Assembly: GCA_030824515.1 (NCBI GenBank)
Contig: JAVBXN010000021.1
Coordinates: 248,001-312,000 of the forward strand
Source of the DNA: Pelobacter sp.
GTDB taxonomy: Bacteria; Desulfobacterota; Desulfuromonadia; Geobacterales; Pseudopelobacteraceae
Direction of reading: 5' to 3'
DNA length: 64,000 nucleotides
Part shown: one piece after another, positions 31,680 to 39,697 of the stretch
Layout of the letters: each line of letters starts with the position of its first letter
How positions within the stretch are numbered: the first letter of the stretch is position 1
Translations under genes and position numbers: made by a program
Notes under the pieces: generated by a model
What the model saw: the letters and a program-made list of their open reading frames with translations, nothing else
What the model was told of the DNA's origin: nothing
The model's database searches: none

Positions 31680-34600
31680 TTAGTTAACTGTTGTATAAAC
31701 GCTACGCCCTTGGCCAACATAAGCATCATAGACATGCTGATAGACCCGGTCGCATTTCATATCAAAGATCTCTTTTGTATAGGGGGTCGGCAGAAAATCG
31801 TCCAATGCCATCTCGATCATCTGGCGTACCGCAGCGCGGGTCTGCTCCCGTTTGCGCCAATCGATCACCAGCTTTTCCTGTTTCAGACGTTCAAGAAGAT
31901 TTTGTGCCCCCTTCTTGACCTGATCGCGCTCGTTATTGGACAGCTCCATATCCGGCTTGGTCAACAGGTCGAACAACGCCAGTTCTTCTTCGGTCAAATT
32001 TTCAACCATGTGGCGGCGTTCTTCTGCATTCAGCTCATCGGCAAACCTGACCAGCTCGTCAAACATGGCCTCCATGTTATGCGCACCGCTGTTGTAGGCT
32101 GCAATCAATTGCTGAAAGCGTTCCAGATAATCCAATCGGGTCCGGTTGAAGGTCGCCAGAGCGCGCACCTTGCGCTCCAATGCTGATCGCAGCCGCTCAA
32201 TCTCGGTCCGCTTGAGCCCGGACTCAAACCGTTTACGCAAGACATCGAAATCAATTTTGGAGAGGTCGTACTGTCGTTCCCAGCCCGATTTATGGGCCTC
32301 ATGGATGACATACGCCTCGGCAGCCACCGCCCGGTCGAGCAGCGCTTCAACGCCGGCCATTACTTCGGAGATGTCAACCTCCGGGTCGAGTGAACGGATC
32401 TTTTCGGCAAGCACCGCAATCAGTCTGCGACGGGGAGCATATTCGGTGGCCGAGGGATCGGGCAGAATTGCCTTGAACAATCGCTCCACCATGCTTGACA
32501 GCGCAAGATACGTCCGCTTGGATTCATCGTTGACGAGAATCGCCTCTACCGCGTCATCGAGCCGTTTTACCAGCTCAAATCCCGCGACCTCTTGAGTAGC
32601 AGTCAACGGCACTCCCTGTCGGGTGCAAAATTCTTCAGTCTCGGCAATCTTTTTCCGCAGACTCTCTACCAGAAAGGCCTTGGCCTGTACCGGGCACTCG
32701 CCCTCGGCCACCCCTCCGCCGGAACCGGAGCCATACACCGCCAACGCCCGCTGGAGGTTGCGGAACACACCGACGTAATCGACGATCAGGCCATTGACCT
32801 TGTCGCCGAAGACCCGGTTGGCGCGGGCAATGGTCTGCATCAAGGTATGGTTCTTCATCGGCTTGTCGAGATAGATGGTGTTGCAGCTCGGCACATCAAA
32901 ACCGGTGATCCACATGGCGCAGACAAACACCAGGCAGAAGGGATCATCCGGGGCTTTGAACTTTTTCTCCAGATCCTCCCGGATCATACGCTGGCGATGG
33001 GGTTTAAAATCGATTCCCTTGTCGCTGAAAAATTCCAGTTCATTCTGGGACTGGGACACCACCACCGCCATGTCGGCCTGCTCCATCCAGTCCAGACGGG
33101 CCTTGATCTGCTGGCTCAGCTCACCCTCCGCCGTCACCAGTTCATCCTGCAGGTGTAGGATCTCCCGCTGCCAGTAGGCACGCACCTTCTCGTACATCCG
33201 CACAGCAGTCAGCTTGTCGATGGCAATGAACATCCCCTTGCCCATCTCGCCCCGGCCGAGGAAATGGCTGACCACATCCTGCGCCACCCGCTCCAACCGC
33301 TCGTCGCGGGTAACCAGGTGATACTCCCGGGCAAACTCCCGCTCCAGCCGCCGTTCCTGAGCCTCGTCCAACTCGGCTTCTTCCAGCAGCGCCTCCATCT
33401 CCTCATTCAGGTTTTCGTTGGTCAGCTGCAATTCCGGAATGCGGTTCTCGTAGAAGAGCGGTACCGTGGCGCCGTCGTCCACCGATTGGCGGAAGTTGTA
33501 GATGCTGACGTAATCGCCAAATACCTTGCGGGTCAGCTCCTCGCCGGACATGAGCGGGGTTCCGGTAAAACCGATAAAAGCGGCGTTGGGAAGGGCGTTG
33601 CGCATGTTGAGAGCGAAGGTGTCATACTGGCTGCGATGGGCCTCATCAGTAATGACAATGATGTCCGAACGTTCCGAAAGGAGCGGGTAGGCCTCACCCT
33701 TGTCTGTGCGGAACTTCTGGATCAGGGTGAAGACGTAGCGGTGATCTTCCTGAAGCAACTCGCGCAAATGCTCGCCGCTCTGAGCGTGGATGCGCTTTTC
33801 TTCCTCGGTAACCACCCCGCATCCGGCAAAGTTCTTGTATATCTGGCCGTCCAGTTCCTGCCGGTCGGTGACGATAAGGAAGGTCCAGTTACCCGGCATG
33901 GTGCGCATTACCTTCTGAGCGAAGAACACCATGGAGTAGCTTTTGCCGCTCCCCTGGGTATGCCAGAAAACCCCGAGCCGCCCCTGATTCTCTCGGATAT
34001 TGCCGACCGCTTGAACGGCGCTGTTGACACCCAGATACTGGTGATTTTTACCCAACAGCTTTTGCGTTCCCCCCTGGGTGTCTGCAAAGAGGATGAAGTT
34101 TTCCACCAGATCCAGCAGGCGAGCCTTGTCACACGTCCCCCGGATCATGGTCTCCAGGCTGACGACTCCCTCCTCGCCTTCGCCATTGATTTTTTTCCAG
34201 TCGGCAAAATGCTCCCAGTTGGCGGTCAGGCTGCCGATGCGGCTCTGACTGCCGTTACTGAGGATGATGAGGGCGTTGTACCAGAAGAGCTGCGGAATGG
34301 TTGACTTGTAGTCGCGCAGGTTGTCGCGGAAGGCGTTTTCTAATTTACGGTGACTGGCCTTCAGCTCGACGAACACAAGCGGCAGACCGTTGACGAACCC
34401 CACCAGGTCGCAGCGGCGCTTGTACATCTCGCCGGTCACCCACAACTGAGAAGTGAGGAGGAAGTTGTTATTCCCGGCATGCTGCCAATCGATGACCTTC
34501 ACCGTCTCGGTGATAAGTTCACCCTTGGTGTTTTCAAAGGTAACCTTGACGCCGTTTTTCAGCAGGGTATGAACCTCACGATTGGCCTGCACCGGCGTCA

Positions 34601-34850
34601 TCAGGCCACGGTCACGGCTCAGCTCATCGATAGCCAGGGCAAGCGCCTCGGCGGGCAGGGCAGGATTCAGCCGCTCAAGCGCCGGGCGCAGCCGGGCCGT
34701 CAGCACTACCTCGCCGCTGGTCTGGCGACCAAGTTGCCCCGAATCGCCAAAGGTCTCACGGTAACAGTTCACCGTCTCCCATTCGAGCGTCTCGAAAAGG
34801 GCAATGGTCGGCTGTTCGATGAGTATGTCTTCGGAGTAGGTGTTGGTCAT
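31680..34850 (-). CDS. hsdR: Type I restriction endonuclease R subunit
   Basis: Restriction and DNA-translocating subunit. 1056 residues, full length. The N-terminal nuclease domain (PD-(D/E)xK type) has Asp in [11 protein letters not shown] and E-x-K in VFVELKASH. The SF2 helicase motor has Walker A in [22 protein letters not shown] box in [13 protein letters not shown], motif [12 protein letters not shown] and motif [13 protein letters not shown]. The C-terminal helical part contacts HsdM/HsdS. It starts [13 protein letters not shown] and has no N-terminal DUF4145 part, so it differs from the R-subunit relics at 53 and 55.5 kb. It is separated from hsdS-hsdM by three small genes and a 313-bp repeat-bearing gap. 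Confidence 0.95.
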
Positions 34851-34983
34851 TTATTACCTGTATGCTTCTATGATCCCTTAAGGATACTGTATTCTACGTT
34901 TCTGTTGATTCTGCTTCGTTTCGTCCATAGAGACCGGGTATGGCGTGCCTCTGTACAGCTAATGTACGGAGTCCGACTCATAT

Positions 34984-35040
34984 TGTTCGAAGCTTACGGT
35001 TGTAATGTTCGGAGCTTACAACGAATTGTTCGGAGCTTCG
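34984..35040. repeat. Three tandem 14-bp repeats, possible IS21-type terminal repeats
   Basis: TGTTCGAAGCTTAC (34984), TGTTCGGAGCTTAC (35006) and TGTTCGGAGCTTCG (35027) recur every 21-22 bp upstream of hsdR. Multiple subterminal repeats with this period are known at the ends of IS21-family elements. No transposase gene is present, so this would be a solo end or scar. The rest of the 34851-35163 gap holds the hairpin at 35100 and nothing else that I recognise. Confidence 0.45.
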
Positions 35041-35099
35041 AGCTATTTTGTTGACAGATAGCCAACGTTTGCTATACACAGGAAATAGATACCATAAAG

Positions 35100-35157
35100 G
35101 TCCCCCCCTGATGATAAGAGCCCATGGGGCTCTCCCGCAAGGGTAGTCAGGGGGGTC
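35100..35157. repeat. Long imperfect hairpin downstream of the DUF3800 gene
   Basis: CCCCCCTGA near the left end pairs with TCAGGGGGG near the right end; a nested AGAGCCCATGGGGCTCT hairpin fills the centre. It lies seven bases past the DUF3800 stop (leftward) and may act as its terminator or be a mobile-element hairpin. Confidence 0.55.
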
Positions 35158-35163
35158 AAATTT

Positions 35164-35826
35164 TTAGTAGTACTTCCTCGTTCCCGTCCTAAAAATCTCG
35201 AATTCACTCTTCACTCTCGACCTAATCAAATCATACGACCGCGTATCTCCTCGTTCCCACTTCCTGAAAATAGCCCAATTGCAGTAATCCGCCACTTGAA
35301 GGCCGAAGCTCGATTTCGAGGCATGATGCAGTACCCGGTATTTTATCTGGTCAGGAAGCATCTCGGTCAATGTTTCCTTTACGGCCTTTTCAACCGCCTT
35401 TGCTTTCTTTTTTACCGGAATGGTATCAGTGATGACGATCACTTCTTCCACATCCCGCAATAAATGGTCTTTCAACAGATATTTCAGCAAATATCCCAAC
35501 ATCTTCGGATAAAACTGCAACTCATCCCGCAATGCCGGACCAGCTTTGCTCTTTTCTACAATCAGGCTGTCAACACGGAGAGTCCCCATATGTCGTTGAA
35601 TGGCATTAAACACCCGATCGCGTACAGCTTGGCGGTCTTCTGTTGCGTGAAAATATTCAAAATCAAGACCGGTCTCAATAAGGTCATACTTGAGATGATC
35701 CAGAATTGGCGCTATCTGAAATGGACGAGCCTTGGTTACACTCGTCAGAGTAAAATACTTCGTACCGGTTGGGGAAAAATCGAAGTTCCCACCCTCATCA
35801 AGAAAAACGTACAGATAATGGCCCAC
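35164..35826 (-). CDS. DUF3800 domain-containing protein
   Basis: 220 residues from a GTG at 35826 (VGHYLYVFLDEGG), chosen for GGAG 7 bp upstream; the frame is open further to 36045 but that part overlaps the DUF3024 gene. DUF3800 marks: YLYVFLDEGGNFDF (the FxDESG-type start), VIVITDTIPVKKKAKAVEKAVKETL, and the closing KSSFGLQVADYCNWAIFRKWERGD (S-x-x-x-x-Q-x-A-D). The family has an RNase H-like fold and often sits near phage-defence genes; its biochemical role is unknown. Here it lies inside the type I restriction locus. Confidence 0.82.
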   Translation of the reverse strand: MGHYLYVFLDEGGNFDFSPTGTKYFTLTSVTKARPFQIAPILDHLKYDLIETGLDFEYFHATEDRQAVRDRVFNAIQRHMGTLRVDSLIVEKSKAGPALRDELQFYPKMLGYLLKYLLKDHLLRDVEEVIVITDTIPVKKKAKAVEKAVKETLTEMLPDQIKYRVLHHASKSSFGLQVADYCNWAIFRKWERGDTRSYDLIRSRVKSEFEIFRTGTRKYY

Positions 35827-35884
35827 TAACGTGCTCCATTGAATTGGATTCTGATTTGTCCGACACAGTTCCTTCCCAATATAT

Positions 35885-36229
35885 TCACCCCCAGAACGCC
35901 CCGTTTCCATTCTTTTCCACCTCATCAAGCAGCTTTTCGATACGGGCATGGAACGGTAATGGTGGATACTCGCGCCATTTATTGTTTCGGTCAGCCCAAG
36001 ACAATAGCCATGTTTCGGTTTTGGAGTCTTTCTTGAACCGCGCAATTTTCATGCGTGTCCACTCACCTTCGCCACGCCAGGGTGAACGGCACTCAAGTAA
36101 ATAAACCTCGTTGCCTTTAATCTCAAACTCCACCCGCAGCTCGTTGTGATACTGGGATGGAACCTTCTTGGCGCAATAATCGCCGAACAGTTTTTCGATT
36201 CGTTTCTTTTCAAGTTCAGTCAGGGCCAT
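35885..36229 (-). CDS. DUF3024 domain-containing protein
   Basis: 114 residues, MALTELEKKRIEKLFGDYCAKKVP. Recognised as DUF3024 by its short length and pattern (PSQYHNELRVEFEIKGNEVYLLECRSPWRGEGEWTRMKIARFK...TWLLSWADRNNKW). Function unknown; such genes often occur with defence or mobile regions. It is transcribed leftward between the DUF559 and DUF3800 genes. A palindromic repeat (36256-36348) lies directly upstream of the start region. Base composition looks lower in GC than the flanking housekeeping genes. Confidence 0.8.
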   Translation of the reverse strand: MALTELEKKRIEKLFGDYCAKKVPSQYHNELRVEFEIKGNEVYLLECRSPWRGEGEWTRMKIARFKKDSKTETWLLSWADRNNKWREYPPLPFHARIEKLLDEVEKNGNGAFWG

Positions 36230-36255
36230 GGTTTACTCCTTCTAACTGCAACGGC

Positions 36256-36348
36256 AAATCCCCCTAAATCCCCCTTTCGTAAAGGGGGACTTGAAAATCA
36301 TCCCCGTTTTAGCTCCCTCCTTTAAGAAAGGGGGGCTGGGGGGGATTT
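36256..36348. repeat. C-rich palindromic repeat, copy B
   Basis: Begins AAATCCCCCTAAATCCCCC and ends GGCTGGGGGGGATTT, with internal hairpins CCCCCTTTCGTAAAGGGGG and CCTCCTTTAAGAAAGG. Nearly the same as copy C (36720-36811) and related to copy D inside hsdM. It runs into the 3' end of the DUF559 gene and supplies its stop codon region. Confidence 0.9.
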
Positions 36349-36705
36349 CTTCCTCCGCACTATCTCTTCCGCAATCCGTTCCAGCACCGCTTCCATCTCC
36401 AGCAAAACTTCTCGGTTGTTGAAACGCAGCACCAGTAATCCTTCATCAGCCAGGCATTGGTCACGCTGACGGTCCCGTTCGAGATGTTCTGCCTTATAGT
36501 GCTGACCGCCGTCAACTTCAATGACCAGTCCCGCTGCCGGGGCAAAGAAGTCCACAATAAACGGGCCAAGCGGTTTCTGCCGGTAGAACTGGACACCGTG
36601 CAACTGTTTGCGGCGCAGGCGCTGCCACAACACCTGCTCGGCATCGGTCATGTTGCCGCGCAATTCGCGGGACGGCGTTTTCAGGTTGTTGCGATAGTCA
36701 CGCAT
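36322..36705 (-). CDS. DUF559 endonuclease-like protein
   Basis: 127 residues. DUF559 (very-short-patch-repair-like, PD-(D/E)xK fold) marks: LRGNMTDAEQVLWQRLRRKQLHGVQFYRQKPLGPFIVDFFAPAAGLVIEVDGGQH, in which the Asp of FIVDFF and the Glu/Asp of IEVDGGQH form the putative active site. A helix with DRQRDQCLADEGLLVLRFNN follows. The last ~9 residues (KKSPPAPLS) are encoded by the palindromic repeat copy B, so the native C-terminus was replaced or extended by repeat insertion. It sits between hsdS and DUF3024, within the restriction locus. Confidence 0.88.
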   Translation of the reverse strand: MRDYRNNLKTPSRELRGNMTDAEQVLWQRLRRKQLHGVQFYRQKPLGPFIVDFFAPAAGLVIEVDGGQHYKAEHLERDRQRDQCLADEGLLVLRFNNREVLLEMEAVLERIAEEIVRRKKSPPAPLS

Positions 36706-36719
36706 AAATTCCTAAAGGC

Positions 36720-36811
36720 AAATCCCCCTAAATCCCCCTTTCGTAAAGGGGGACTTGGAAACACTCCGCTTTACACACCCCCCTTTATGAAAGGGGGGCT
36801 GGGGGGGATTT
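36720..36811. repeat. C-rich palindromic repeat, copy C
   Basis: Same element as copy B: begins AAATCCCCCTAAATCCCCC, contains CCCCCTTTCGTAAAGGGGG and CCCCTTTATGAAAGGGG, ends GGCTGGGGGGGATTT. It fills the gap between the hsdS stop and the DUF559 start. Confidence 0.9.
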
Positions 36812-37989
36812 CACACCGCAATCTCCCCCGAAATCAGTTTCGGCAGCAGCAGGTCGCGGGTTTGGCGGAGGTTTTGGTTTTTGAGTAATAACGTATCAAT
36901 CTCTGAAGACATCGGCGAAACCAAATGTTCAAATTTATCTATGATTTTTTGTGAAGGCAAAACAACTTCCATACCCTCTATTTGAGAACCACTCATGTTG
37001 GGTTGCGCCGCTCCATCTGCTAAATTGAATAGCAGTTTTTGGTACTCCTCACTCGTTATGATATTCCAAATATACTCGCTAACTCCTTTTATTGGCTCTA
37101 TCTTCGCAACTCGTTGATTAAGCAATACCTGTGATTTGTACCGTAGTTTTCCGACTTTGCCAGCGGTAGCGCCGGTCATCGCAATAAGAAAATCACCATT
37201 TTTCAGCAAATATTTTTCTACCTTCGAGGTTAAGATTTCGAGCGGTACACAATCTATCTCCTGCAAATTAACAGTTGAGTCGGAAGATATATTTTTGATC
37301 TTGATCACAGGTATACCGGAGAGTTGCCAATCTTTACTTTTAAAAGCATATCCAGGAAGAACTTTACAAACTTCCCCAAGCGCTTTCACCTCCCACCCCT
37401 CCGGAATCAAACCAAGCGGCGAATCAACCATCCGCACCTGCTCATGCCCCGGAAAACGGAAATTGACGAACCACTCGCGGTAGACCAACCGCGCCATCTC
37501 TTCCAGGATTTTGATACGACGGGTGTTGTTTTCGATCAGGTCGTCGTAGGCGGAGAGGATGGAGGCGATGGTATGTTGTGTTTCGAGAGGGGGGTATTCG
37601 ACTTCAAGACTCTTTAGAAGGGCGAGAGTCAGAAATTTTGTTGCAGCGCCGGTTGATATACTCTTCAAATGATCGAGCTTCGGCCTCATTGCAAAATACA
37701 GAAAGCGATTTGAAAGCCTTGCTTCATCAACAGATTGAATTACATAAGTTCTCTGATAAGCGTCAAATTTCCCAGTGAAATATTTTAGAGGATAAATACC
37801 TGCAGCATTGTTACCCGCCAAAAGGACACACTCACAATCGAACGAGCATGTATCAGTTCGATATGTTTCTTGAGCACATGTGAAAAAGGGATATTTGCCA
37901 GTTGGTGTGGACGCATTTGAGTCCAGCTTCCCAGTTTTGAAAGACACTAATTCGCCAAGTGTTATTGAGGAAAACCTTTTTGCCATTAC
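36811..37989 (-). CDS. hsdS: Type I restriction-modification specificity subunit S
   Basis: DNA target-recognition subunit. 392 residues from the ATG at 37989 (MAKRFSSITLGELV), preferred because GAAGGGG lies 5 bp upstream; an ATG at 38013 is also in frame. Two target recognition domains (~10-150, beginning LGELVSFKTGKLDSN; ~205-350, beginning ALGEVCKVLPGYAFKSKDW) and two conserved spacer helices (TQHTIASILSAYDDLIENNTRRI; and LLLKNQNLRQTRDLLLPKLISGEI). The target sequence cannot be predicted. GC is visibly lower than in hsdM, common for horizontally exchanged S genes. The start region carries a partial palindromic repeat. Confidence 0.93.
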   Translation of the reverse strand, partial: VMAKRFSSITLGELVSFKTGKLDSNASTPTGKYPFFTCAQETYRTDTCSFDCECVLLAGNNAAGIYPLKYFTGKFDAYQRTYVIQSVDEARLSNRFLYFAMRPKLDHLKSISTGAATKFLTLALLKSLEVEYPPLETQHTIASILSAYDDLIENNTRRIKILEEMARLVYREWFVNFRFPGHEQVRMVDSPLGLIPEGWEVKALGEVCKVLPGYAFKSKDWQLSGIPVIKIKNISSDSTVNLQEIDCVPLEILTSKVEKYLLKNGDFLIAMTGATAGKVGKLRYKSQVLLNQRVAKIEPIKGVSEYIWNIITSEEYQKLLFNLADGAAQPNMSGSQIEGMEVVLPSQKIIDKFEHLVSPMSSEIDTLLLKNQNLRQTRDLLLPKLISGEIAV

Positions 37990-38011
37990 ATCCCCTTCAA
38001 CCAAACTATTC

Positions 38012-38037
38012 ATCCCCCTTTCGTAAAGAGGGACTTA
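38012..38037. repeat. Partial C-rich palindromic repeat, fragment E
   Basis: CATCCCCCTTTCGTAAAGAG and the following GGACTTA match the core hairpin of copies B and C. It lies between the hsdM stop and the hsdS start and appears truncated. Confidence 0.65.
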
Positions 38038-38041
38038 AAAA

Positions 38042-39697
38042 CTAACTTTCCAAAATCCGCGCCACATTCTCCCCAATCCGCTCCTCCAACTCCCGCGCCT
38101 CGGCGTTGAGCACTTCCAGCTCCTCGTTCAACTCCTCCAGCCGTTCGGCAAAGACAAAATCATCCGCCTCCCGCTCGGCCACGCCGACATAACGCCCAGG
38201 ATTAAGACTCCACCCCTGCGCCTCTATCTCCGCAATTGTCGCCACCTTGCACAGGCCGGGAACGTCCGTATAGCGGCCATATGGGAACTTTTCCTCCAGC
38301 ATGACGGCACTACCGTGAACTGTTTCCGGCTCTTCCCCCCGATACAGCCGGGCGATGTTGGCGAGGAATTCGATCTGTTCCGGCGTAAAGTCACGATGGG
38401 CTCTATCAATCTGGCGGTAGATGTGGCGGGCGTCTATGAACAAGACGGCGTCTTTCGAGCTGACAGCTAGGGGCAAATCCGCCCCAGCCCCCCTTTCATA
38501 AAGGGGGGAGCTATCTAAGTCCCCCTTTACGAAAGGGGGACTTAGGGGGATTTGCTTTTCGGATTTAAGGAGATTTGCCTTCCCCTTGTCGAAAAACCAA
38601 AGGGTACAAGGCAATGTAACATTAGAAAAGAAGTTCGACCCGATGGCAACCATCACATCCACCACCCCGCTCTGAACCAGCTGGCGGCGAATCTCCATCT
38701 CGCTGCCGCGCGCATCAGAGGCCGAGTTGGCCATGACGAACCCGGCCCGACCGGAGTCATTCAGGGTGCTGGCAAAGAGCTGAATCCATACGTAGTTGCC
38801 GTTGTCGGTCTTGGGCATGCCGTAGGGGAAACGGGGATCGTCCTTGATCCGCTCCCGGTCGATGCCGTTGACATTGAACGGTGGATTGGCCATGACGAAA
38901 TCGAAACGGCCCAGGCTTTCGTGGATATCCTCGTAGTAGCTGTTCCCCTGCTTAACGTCGCCGGAGAGGCCATGTACTGCCAGGTTCATACGGCAGAGGC
39001 GCACCGTTTCGGCCACCCTTTCCTCGCCGTAGACGCTGATCTCGCTGCCGGGGTTCTTCTGATGCCCGGCAACAAAGGCGGCGCTCTGGACGAACATGCC
39101 GCCACTGCCGCAGGCCGGGTCGTAGATGCGGCCATGGTACGGCTCGATGATCTCCACGATCAGCTTGACCAGAGATGTTGGGGTGAAAAATTCGCCCCCT
39201 TTTTGCCCCTCGGCCTTGGCGAATTCGCCCAGGAAATATTCGTAAATCCTGCCGAAGGCATCACCCTCGATATCCATGGGGATTGAGTTGAAGGTTTTAA
39301 GCAGTGTCACCAGCGAGTCGTTGCCAACCTTCTGGAAATTCCGGGGGAGAACTCCCTTCAGCTCAGGGTTCTCGGCCTCGACAAGCGCAAAGGCCTCGTT
39401 GATCTCCTTGCCAATATCCTTCCCCTCTGGAAGATGCAGCAGATAGTTGAAACGCGCCGCCTCGGGGAGATAAAGCACACCACGTGCGTGATAGTCGGTC
39501 TTGCCGACCGTGCGGCGGCCGCTTCCCTTCCCCTCCAGTTCCTTTTTGGCCTGGGAGAATTTCACATCGGCATATTTGAGGAAGATCAGCCCCAGCACCG
39601 GGACCGAATACTCCGATGATTTCAACTCGGAGTTGGCACGCAGTTCGTCGGCGGCAGACCAGAGTTTTTTTTCAAGTTCAAGCAGGGTGGCATACAT
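38042..39697 (-). CDS. hsdM: Type I restriction-modification methyltransferase subunit M, with in-frame repeat insertion
   Basis: N6-adenine methyltransferase subunit. 551 residues. SAM-binding motif [12 protein letters not shown], catalytic motif [12 protein letters not shown], and the N-terminal helical HsdM_N region ([32 protein letters not shown]). Between [11 protein letters not shown] and [11 protein letters not shown], normally close together, about 27 extra residues (~382-408, including [18 protein letters not shown]) are encoded by a palindromic repeat copy (38475-38553). The frame stays open, so the protein may still work. Upstream of hsdS in the same direction. Confidence 0.94.
38475..38553. 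repeat. C-rich palindromic repeat, copy D, inserted in frame in hsdM
   Basis: AAATCCGCCCCAGCCCCCC at the left and GACTTAGGGGGATTT at the right flank hairpins CCCCTTTCATAAAGGGG and CCCCCTTTACGAAAGGGGG. It is translated as part of HsdM. Confidence 0.9.

Follow-up and report, generated by a model that had tools for sequence, protein, structure and literature searches.

Why is a small nuclease gene of the DUF559 family, sitting among the genes of a type I restriction system, enclosed on both sides by structured repeats, and does it belong with these repeats or with the restriction locus? The question is raised by a 64-kb stretch of Pelobacter DNA (the window, meaning the whole stretch analysed), in which three leftward open reading frames (ORFs) stand between hsdR and hsdS-hsdM and match DUF3800, DUF3024 and DUF559 by Pfam score, just as an earlier note on this DNA had read them. 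Based on the evidence collected here, the DUF559 gene and its flanking triplex-forming repeats are probably one mobile unit, with DUF559 as its mobility enzyme.

The DUF559 gene and its repeats

The unit and the related repeats in the window are as follows (REPIN denotes an inverted pair of hairpins of the repetitive extragenic palindromic, REP, kind).
36322–36705, minus strand: DUF559 gene (PF04480, 115 bits), 127 aa, predicted Vsr/EDxHD-type PD-(D/E)XK nuclease and proposed mobility enzyme
36720–36811: triplex-motif REPIN upstream of DUF559, hairpins at 36733–36753 and 36778–36798, tags outward
36256–36348: triplex-motif REPIN downstream of DUF559, family D3, hairpins at 36269–36289 and 36315–36335
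38012–38041: one hairpin of this family, lying in the space from hsdS to hsdM, family D1, 1 mismatch
38473–38560: REPIN of the same family, in frame inside hsdM, net 108 bp, 36 residues

Seven hairpins of the form CCCCCTTT-NNN-AAAGGGGG (at most two mismatches) lie in the window, all at 36.27–38.54 kb and none elsewhere in the 64 kb, against a mean of 0.01 in shuffled sequence; the earlier feature list was right in its genes and incomplete in overlooking these hairpins. The whole genome has 43 perfect hairpin copies and one DUF559 match. The gene is bracketed by two direct repeats of ~93 bp each, 77% alike, each of which is itself an inverted hairpin pair; the upstream one belongs to repeat families D1/D3/I5 and has a folding z of -5.2, and the downstream one encodes the C-terminal residues SPPAPLS of the DUF559 protein. 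Neither hsdM copy of the related genome G078 (loci L217 and L218) has the 36-residue repeat insert of the window's hsdM; they align at 94% over residues 1–374 and 93% over 1–378 and resume at residues 411 and 412, and the DNA alignment confirms a net 108-bp insert in the window at what is an empty site in G078.

The PD-(D/E)xK fold that the earlier note had proposed for DUF559 is borne out by the PF04480 match, by fold comparison and by conserved residues. The AlphaFold2 model (pLDDT 84) is matched by 3hrl, a Neisseria DUF559 protein, at 4.4e-7, by I-Bth0305I, a homing endonuclease, at 2.0e-4 and by Vsr of E. coli at 1.6e-2; profile search returned 3hrl (2.8e-41) and I-Bth0305I (7.5e-5). No further domain was found in the 127 residues. 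E23, D52, H69 and D78 are invariant in 35 aligned DUF559 sequences, and by predicted fold together with these E, D, H and D residues the protein is placed among the Vsr/EDxHD-type nucleases. Published profile matching linked the E. coli member, YcjD, to Vsr and placed it in the PD-(D/E)XK superfamily (PMC1189080).

Hairpins beside DUF559 genes and the triplex code

Flanking hairpins were scored by a single rule, demanding a perfect stem of at least 8 bp, a loop of 3–8 nt and a pyrimidine-rich 5′ arm (a Y/R hairpin) within 200 bp of the gene. The sample consisted of the best 80 of 550 DUF559 loci in the contigs of named genomes, mostly from alpha-, beta- and gammaproteobacteria, with a few from Desulfobacterota and single loci from Chloroflexi and Planctomycetes; 77 were scorable, the planctomycete locus not being one of them. 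A Y/R hairpin stands upstream of DUF559 in 55/77, downstream in 50/77, on both sides in 38/77 and on either side in 67/77, while control ORFs in the same loci have one upstream in 16/732, downstream in 18/732 and on both sides in 0/732. With hairpins of any composition admitted, both sides are occupied at 45/77 DUF559 genes and 13/732 control ORFs. The top-scoring DUF559 loci of the window's own order behave alike (either side 25/27, both 18/27), whereas by the same rule DUF3800 scores 0/27 and DUF3024 1/28 (0/25 and 1/28 at 350-bp reach). Twenty lower-scoring DUF559 loci, 19 of them scored, have a hairpin on either side in 18/19 and on both in 13/19. Nine loci from a plasmid collection (Azospirillum, Sphingomonas, Pseudanabaena, Deinococcus, Synechocystis, Sinorhizobium, Photobacterium, Neisseria and Methylobacterium), inspected by eye at a stem of 7, each have a Y/R hairpin within ~180 bp on at least one side. 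The neighbouring genes are varied (sapF/fabI, nirK, carA/dnaG, paa genes). That gene and triplex repeats form one unit is strongly supported.

The tyrosine transposases associated with REP sequences (RAYTs) were considered as mobilisers of the triplex repeats and rejected: Y/R hairpins occur at 6/29 loci with Y1_Tnp (PF01797), all of them with CCCCCACC ends and apparently of one insertion sequence family. These six loci (L273, L274, L275, L277, L278 and L283) carry CCCCCACC-NNN-GGTGGGGG hairpins on both sides, a palindrome unlike the triplex motifs.

The repeats share a layout of pyrimidine arm, loop, purine arm, a linker of 2–3 nt (often YTR) and a purine tag. In 103 of 130 strong matches the inward tag, which mirrors the purine arm, starts 3 nt (85) or 2 nt (18) beyond the hairpin; the mirror-tag match is 0.90 inward and 0.63 outward. 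Measured against the average over other arms, the arm next to a tag is its better fit in 88.6% of 166 cases and its worse fit in 10.8%, and where arms are asymmetric the mirror fits better in 83, a direct copy in 25, with 36 ties. An enlarged set of 197 hairpins was filtered on G positions only, at an offset of 2–3, leaving the arm A positions unused by the filter; 137/197 passed inward and 29/197 outward, the outward matches being partly expected where units lie in pairs, and 60/197 failed at this offset, some of which have longer linkers. In the inward tags, G stands opposite arm G in 988/1006 positions, and opposite arm A there are 121 A, 113 T, 7 G and 11 C, so that A or T accounts for 234/252. 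The 29 outward tags have G opposite G in 201/209 and, opposite A, 28 A, 22 T, 6 G and 4 C. Linkers include TT, CTG, TTG, TTA, TCG, CTA, CCG, TCA, CCA and others, with the purine mirror tag after them; a long linker can itself be a small hairpin, such as gcccggcagggc in Sinorhizobium.

The pairing of tag with arm yields G·G:C, A·A:T and T·A:T, which are the triads of a purine triplex of the antiparallel kind. Because the tag obeys this code, the DUF559 repeats are identified with the published intrastrand triplex motifs (TM/PIT). As an alternative, the two tags of one REPIN can base-pair with each other; the triplex code is preferred over such tag-tag pairing on account of the A-to-T substitutions found in the tag. 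The triplex repeats are thus already known, and DUF559 is the partner newly named. The motifs called TM, TM_ECO and PIT we take to be the same as boxC. Holder et al. (2015) described the intrastrand triplex motifs, one G/C-rich kind occurring in >260 genomes, and reported TM_ECO in 23 copies in E. coli K-12, with TTA or CCG second loops and inverted A+B pairs; the portions of that paper drawn on here tie the motifs to genome instability and give no transposase or integrase remnants around TM_ECO sites, and its main text makes no mention of endonuclease, DUF or Vsr (PMC4666352). A search of the open literature, with subscription papers outside its scope, gave no link of DUF559 or YcjD with triplex repeats; of 14 papers naming DUF559, judged by title and the opening of the abstract, none deals with repeats.

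In K-12 the DUF559 gene is ycjD, between sapF and fabI (L123 1895–2451 including the TM_ECO motif 3′ of it), and a 37-nt motif of the TTA type lies at L123 2415–2451, 166 bp past the ycjD stop (2248). Strain KE47 has a nearly intact motif directly after the DUF559 domain. The ycjD region is present in 3361/5426 E. coli genomes at 80% coverage, and motif copy number looks similar with and without ycjD among the matches listed. No clean empty site for ycjD was obtained: two ycjD-minus E. coli loci carry efflux genes after sapF, and an eef operon has been reported at the ycjD place (PMC12817139).

Signs of movement and competing explanations

Inverted ends are defined for the element family of genome G115, which is built of 13-bp ends (CTGGAGTTTGGAC...GTCCAAACTCCAG), triplex hairpins and DUF559, in this order. 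In that genome, a 601-bp stretch containing one copy of the element has 65 matches. Copies in contigs C98 (L226) and C134 (L228) have an identical internal DUF559 deletion; they have the element (258 bp) in common and otherwise only 22–35 bp hairpin-sized matches, the right flank of L226 ending at the contig end. The copy in C30 has a different DUF559 deletion, and DUF559-deleted copies also occur in G089 and G065. Among 14 elements with both ends present, seven have direct flanking repeats scoring at least 30 (four in G115, two in G089, one in G065), against 8/182 cross pairs (4.4%, maximum 46). The duplicated stretches measure about 19–28 bp and are for the most part clear palindromes, unrelated to one another in sequence, for example CCCCCTCCC-TTTAC-GGGAGGGGG, CCTGAGCC-TTT-GGCTCAGG, GTTCCCCGCCTC-TGTT-GAGGCGGGGAAC and GGGCGCAGCATGCTGCGCCC. 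Six of the seven duplications have a stem of at least 7 on at least one side; stems of this length occur in 4.2% of random 36-mers from the same loci and in at least one flank of 11/14 elements. Within single genomes, the DUF559 paralogs of G119, G103, G075 and G100 are without a common stretch >60 bp, and those of G082 and G094 have only ~110 bp in common at 70–71%. The flanks of L190 and L225, both in G115, are homologous and carry triplex-type hairpins, as if the elements were nested in copies of another repeat.

The proposed mechanism would begin with recognition by DUF559 of the triplex-forming hairpin, on which the purine tag would lie back as a third strand. Breaks made by the enzyme would let the unit and its gene-less derivatives (solo hairpins, REPINs and miniature inverted-repeat transposable elements, MITEs, arisen by internal deletion) copy to new places. 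The palindromic nature of the duplicated targets points to a staggered nick as the likely cut, placed at both feet of a hairpin or cruciform in the target; fill-in would then duplicate the palindrome. That DUF559 is the cutter, and where it cuts, we infer. In the window, a DUF559 element would have landed in the type I cargo site beside DUF3024 and DUF3800.

Further results support this reading more weakly, and several weigh against it. Hairpin copy number agrees with it in part: the two hairpin patterns counted have a median of 8 copies in genomes with DUF559 (n=104) and 1 in those without (n=37; p 1.4e-6, Spearman 0.38), a difference uncorrected for phylogeny; the two patterns are absent from 11/104 genomes with DUF559 and from 13/37 without, and five genomes without a DUF559 match hold at least 10 copies. 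Hairpin class follows the DUF559 tree: over 116 rows it takes 25 changes, where 200 shuffles take at least 56, and the corresponding figures are 9 and at least 20 for the 45 rows within the order and 16 and at least 21 for the 66 rows of the named-genome contig set. Such agreement is expected of any linked flank; flank type predicts dispersed type weakly (p 0.019, 12 vs 8 loci). Ten of the 77 scored DUF559 loci fail the hairpin rule; inspected by eye, they have palindromes of this style that are imperfect or shifted. K-12 has one ycjD for its 23 published motifs, and the single-strand triplex, stable in vitro, is unsupported in vivo according to the sections of Holder et al. used here (PMC4666352). 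Seven of the 14 elements are without a strong duplication, which is tentatively read as decay or chance end pairs. The clean duplications belong to one terminal inverted repeat family in three genomes; L190 and L225 lie in homologous flanks (133 bp on the right), leaving at most six independent contexts, and the duplication at L333 has a stem of 6 bp only. Movement is seen only as copies at different sites.

Some of these points suit the explanation that DUF559 is a passenger or a host repair nuclease, and that the repeats spread by other means (RAYT, replication slippage, recombination) and collect beside DUF559 or regulate it. Copies of the two counted patterns are still held by 24/37 genomes without a DUF559 match, Y1 transposase genes are present in 35/39 genomes of the window's genus, and Caulobacter VsrA, a DUF559 protein, is reported to act in mismatch repair, with a link to cytosine methylation (PMC12907096). 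We nevertheless regard this explanation as improbable: bracketing on both sides is frequent at DUF559 and absent from the neighbouring ORFs, the few Y/R hairpins at Y1_Tnp loci are all of the CCCCCACC kind, and DUF559 elements have defined ends, deleted derivatives and target duplications. A closer contender, which overlaps with the mobile-unit reading, sees DUF559 as a free-standing homing endonuclease that cuts palindromes, its element being copied by break repair through repeat homology and not transposed. The closest enzyme of known mode is I-Bth0305I, the window protein is a 127-residue domain with none other found, and a DUF559 domain does occur inside an intein, at L268 (G135, whole 1.5 kb, minus strand). 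There, an N6_N4_Mtase DNA methyltransferase is split DPTC / GSGTT by an intein that is recognised by NCBIfam intein_Cterm (26.7 bits, cut-off 15.6) and by Pfam Intein_splicing only below cut-off; an in-frame REPIN of the triplex type lies inside the intein, upstream of the DUF559 domain. Among the scored loci of lower rank, L268 alone fails the flanking rule. This intein with its REPIN counts for the mobile-unit reading as well. Insertions in unrelated palindromes with palindrome-long duplications fit staggered-cut insertion better, and homing of this kind seems to us a possible but doubtful account.

The genes around the unit bear on the remaining explanation, in which the trio is a defence module or type I defence cargo. 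They are, with hsdR, hsdS and hsdM as context:
31680–34850, minus strand: hsdR (HSDR_N, SWI2_SNF2 and T1RH-like_C matches)
35164–35826, minus strand: DUF3800 gene (PF12686, 46 bits), probable GTG start; L217 has ~85 bp instead
35885–36229, minus strand: DUF3024 gene (PF11225, 106 bits; PADLOC PDC-S43, 2.5e-23), conserved in L217, candidate defence cargo
36811–38013, minus strand: hsdS (Methylase_S match)
38042–39697, minus strand: hsdM (N6_Mtase match), beyond hsdS and holding the REPIN insert

The earlier note had the DUF3800 gene in place and its ORF, 35164–36045, too long: because that ORF overlaps DUF3024, the start is probably a GTG near 35826, as judged by eye. Between hsdR and the cargo, at 35096–35161, lies a 66-bp structured stretch with nested palindromes (by eye) that is 88% conserved in L217 (5028–5093); Rfam gave no match within window positions 34900–39000, this stretch included.

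As the earlier note had proposed, the trio was surveyed, here in 141 genomes of the window's order. DUF559 occurs in 104 of these, DUF3800 in 32 and DUF3024 in 42; among the matches listed, all three come together in 1/141, the window's own genome, and nowhere else, so a conserved trio did not emerge, an outcome that by the note's own terms counts against its reading. DUF3800 and DUF3024 adjoin in one more genome, G083, which is without a DUF559 match. The three genes are therefore not a unit, and on this co-occurrence a defence module was rejected. The note's other proposal, of a variable site for accessory genes between R and S/M, held up: the syntenic locus L217 of G078 keeps hsdR, DUF3024, hsdS and hsdM, lacks DUF3800 and, in the place of the window's DUF559 unit, has AbiE, a GmrSD nuclease and PDC-M36A, a PADLOC candidate. 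L217 5180–12271 reads DUF3024, an AbiE-type pair (474 + 279 aa), a 695-aa GmrSD-type nuclease, two unmatched ORFs and PDC-M36A; none of the cargo ORFs tested there is DUF559. Since the contents of the L217 interval differ from those of the window, the hsdR-hsdS gap is a cargo site. This site, and the PADLOC matches of DUF3024 (candidate PDC-S43) and DUF3800 (DUF3800_VII), are what a defence explanation can point to. The DUF559 matches in PADLOC are partial (DpdF 33.5 bits, mREase_II 17.9 bits), the trio is confined to one genome as given above, and DUF559 has its own repeat ends in most loci examined, beside varied genes; a defence role for the trio is accordingly held to be very improbable. 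The best account of DUF559 is that it came to the cargo site as a mobile element of its own and not as defence cargo.

Relation to known systems

On balance we lean towards a broader claim, that DUF559 represents a new class of transposable element, with a lone Vsr-like nuclease, triplex hairpins and insertion into palindromes by nicking both feet, and that it is the missing source of the triplex repeats from E. coli to cyanobacteria. To our knowledge, no established class accommodates a transposable element that combines triplex ends with a lone Vsr-like nuclease. Naming a partner nuclease for the triplex repeats turns long-described sequences into a testable genetic system and suggests a role for a widespread nuclease family of unknown function that includes YcjD of E. 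coli K-12. If true, the proposal would explain the spread of a widespread class of bacterial repeats, provide a second, independently evolved counterpart to RAYT and describe a mobile element recognised as much by the shape of its DNA as by the sequence. It also advises caution: a DUF559 gene within a defence island may be a passenger without a part in defence.

Each component has its analog among known systems. I-Bth0305I and Vsr share with DUF559 the fold and the invariant E, D, H and D; the known EDxHD enzymes, however, ride introns or repair T:G mismatches, whereas the DUF559 gene is bracketed by structured repeats. MITEs resemble the deleted elements in internal deletions, terminal inverted repeats and target duplication, the differences being the lone Vsr-like nuclease of the DUF559 parent and the palindromic form of the duplication (~19–28 bp). 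The intrastrand triplex motifs agree in the TTA/CCG second loop, the class II purine triplex and the inverted pairs; the TM_ECO work found no linked mobility gene at TM_ECO sites (PMC4666352), whereas DUF559 is linked here, together with elements, ends and target duplications. The CGTC-tagged REPs of Di Nocera et al. (2013) are, in the portion of the source used, likewise a palindromic super-family without a known mobiliser (PMC3733652), but start their stem with A/T and have a CGTC tag and a CCA tail, while the inner hairpins of DUF559 are of another kind; as partners of DUF559 they were set aside because stems and tags differ by reading, no systematic CGTC scan having been made. The nearest parallel is the RAYT/REPIN system, in which, in the part of the same source that describes it, short tagged palindromes, often in inverted pairs, are dispersed and bracket the gene of one nuclease (PMC3733652). 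Its enzyme is of the HUH-Y1 kind and its tag is GTAG, whereas DUF559 is a PD-(D/E)XK Vsr-like enzyme and the tag mirrors the purine stem. Because both the enzyme fold and the GTAG tag fail, the DUF559 system is not filed under RAYT/REPIN; on a stricter reading, it could be regarded as a new variant of the REP systems.

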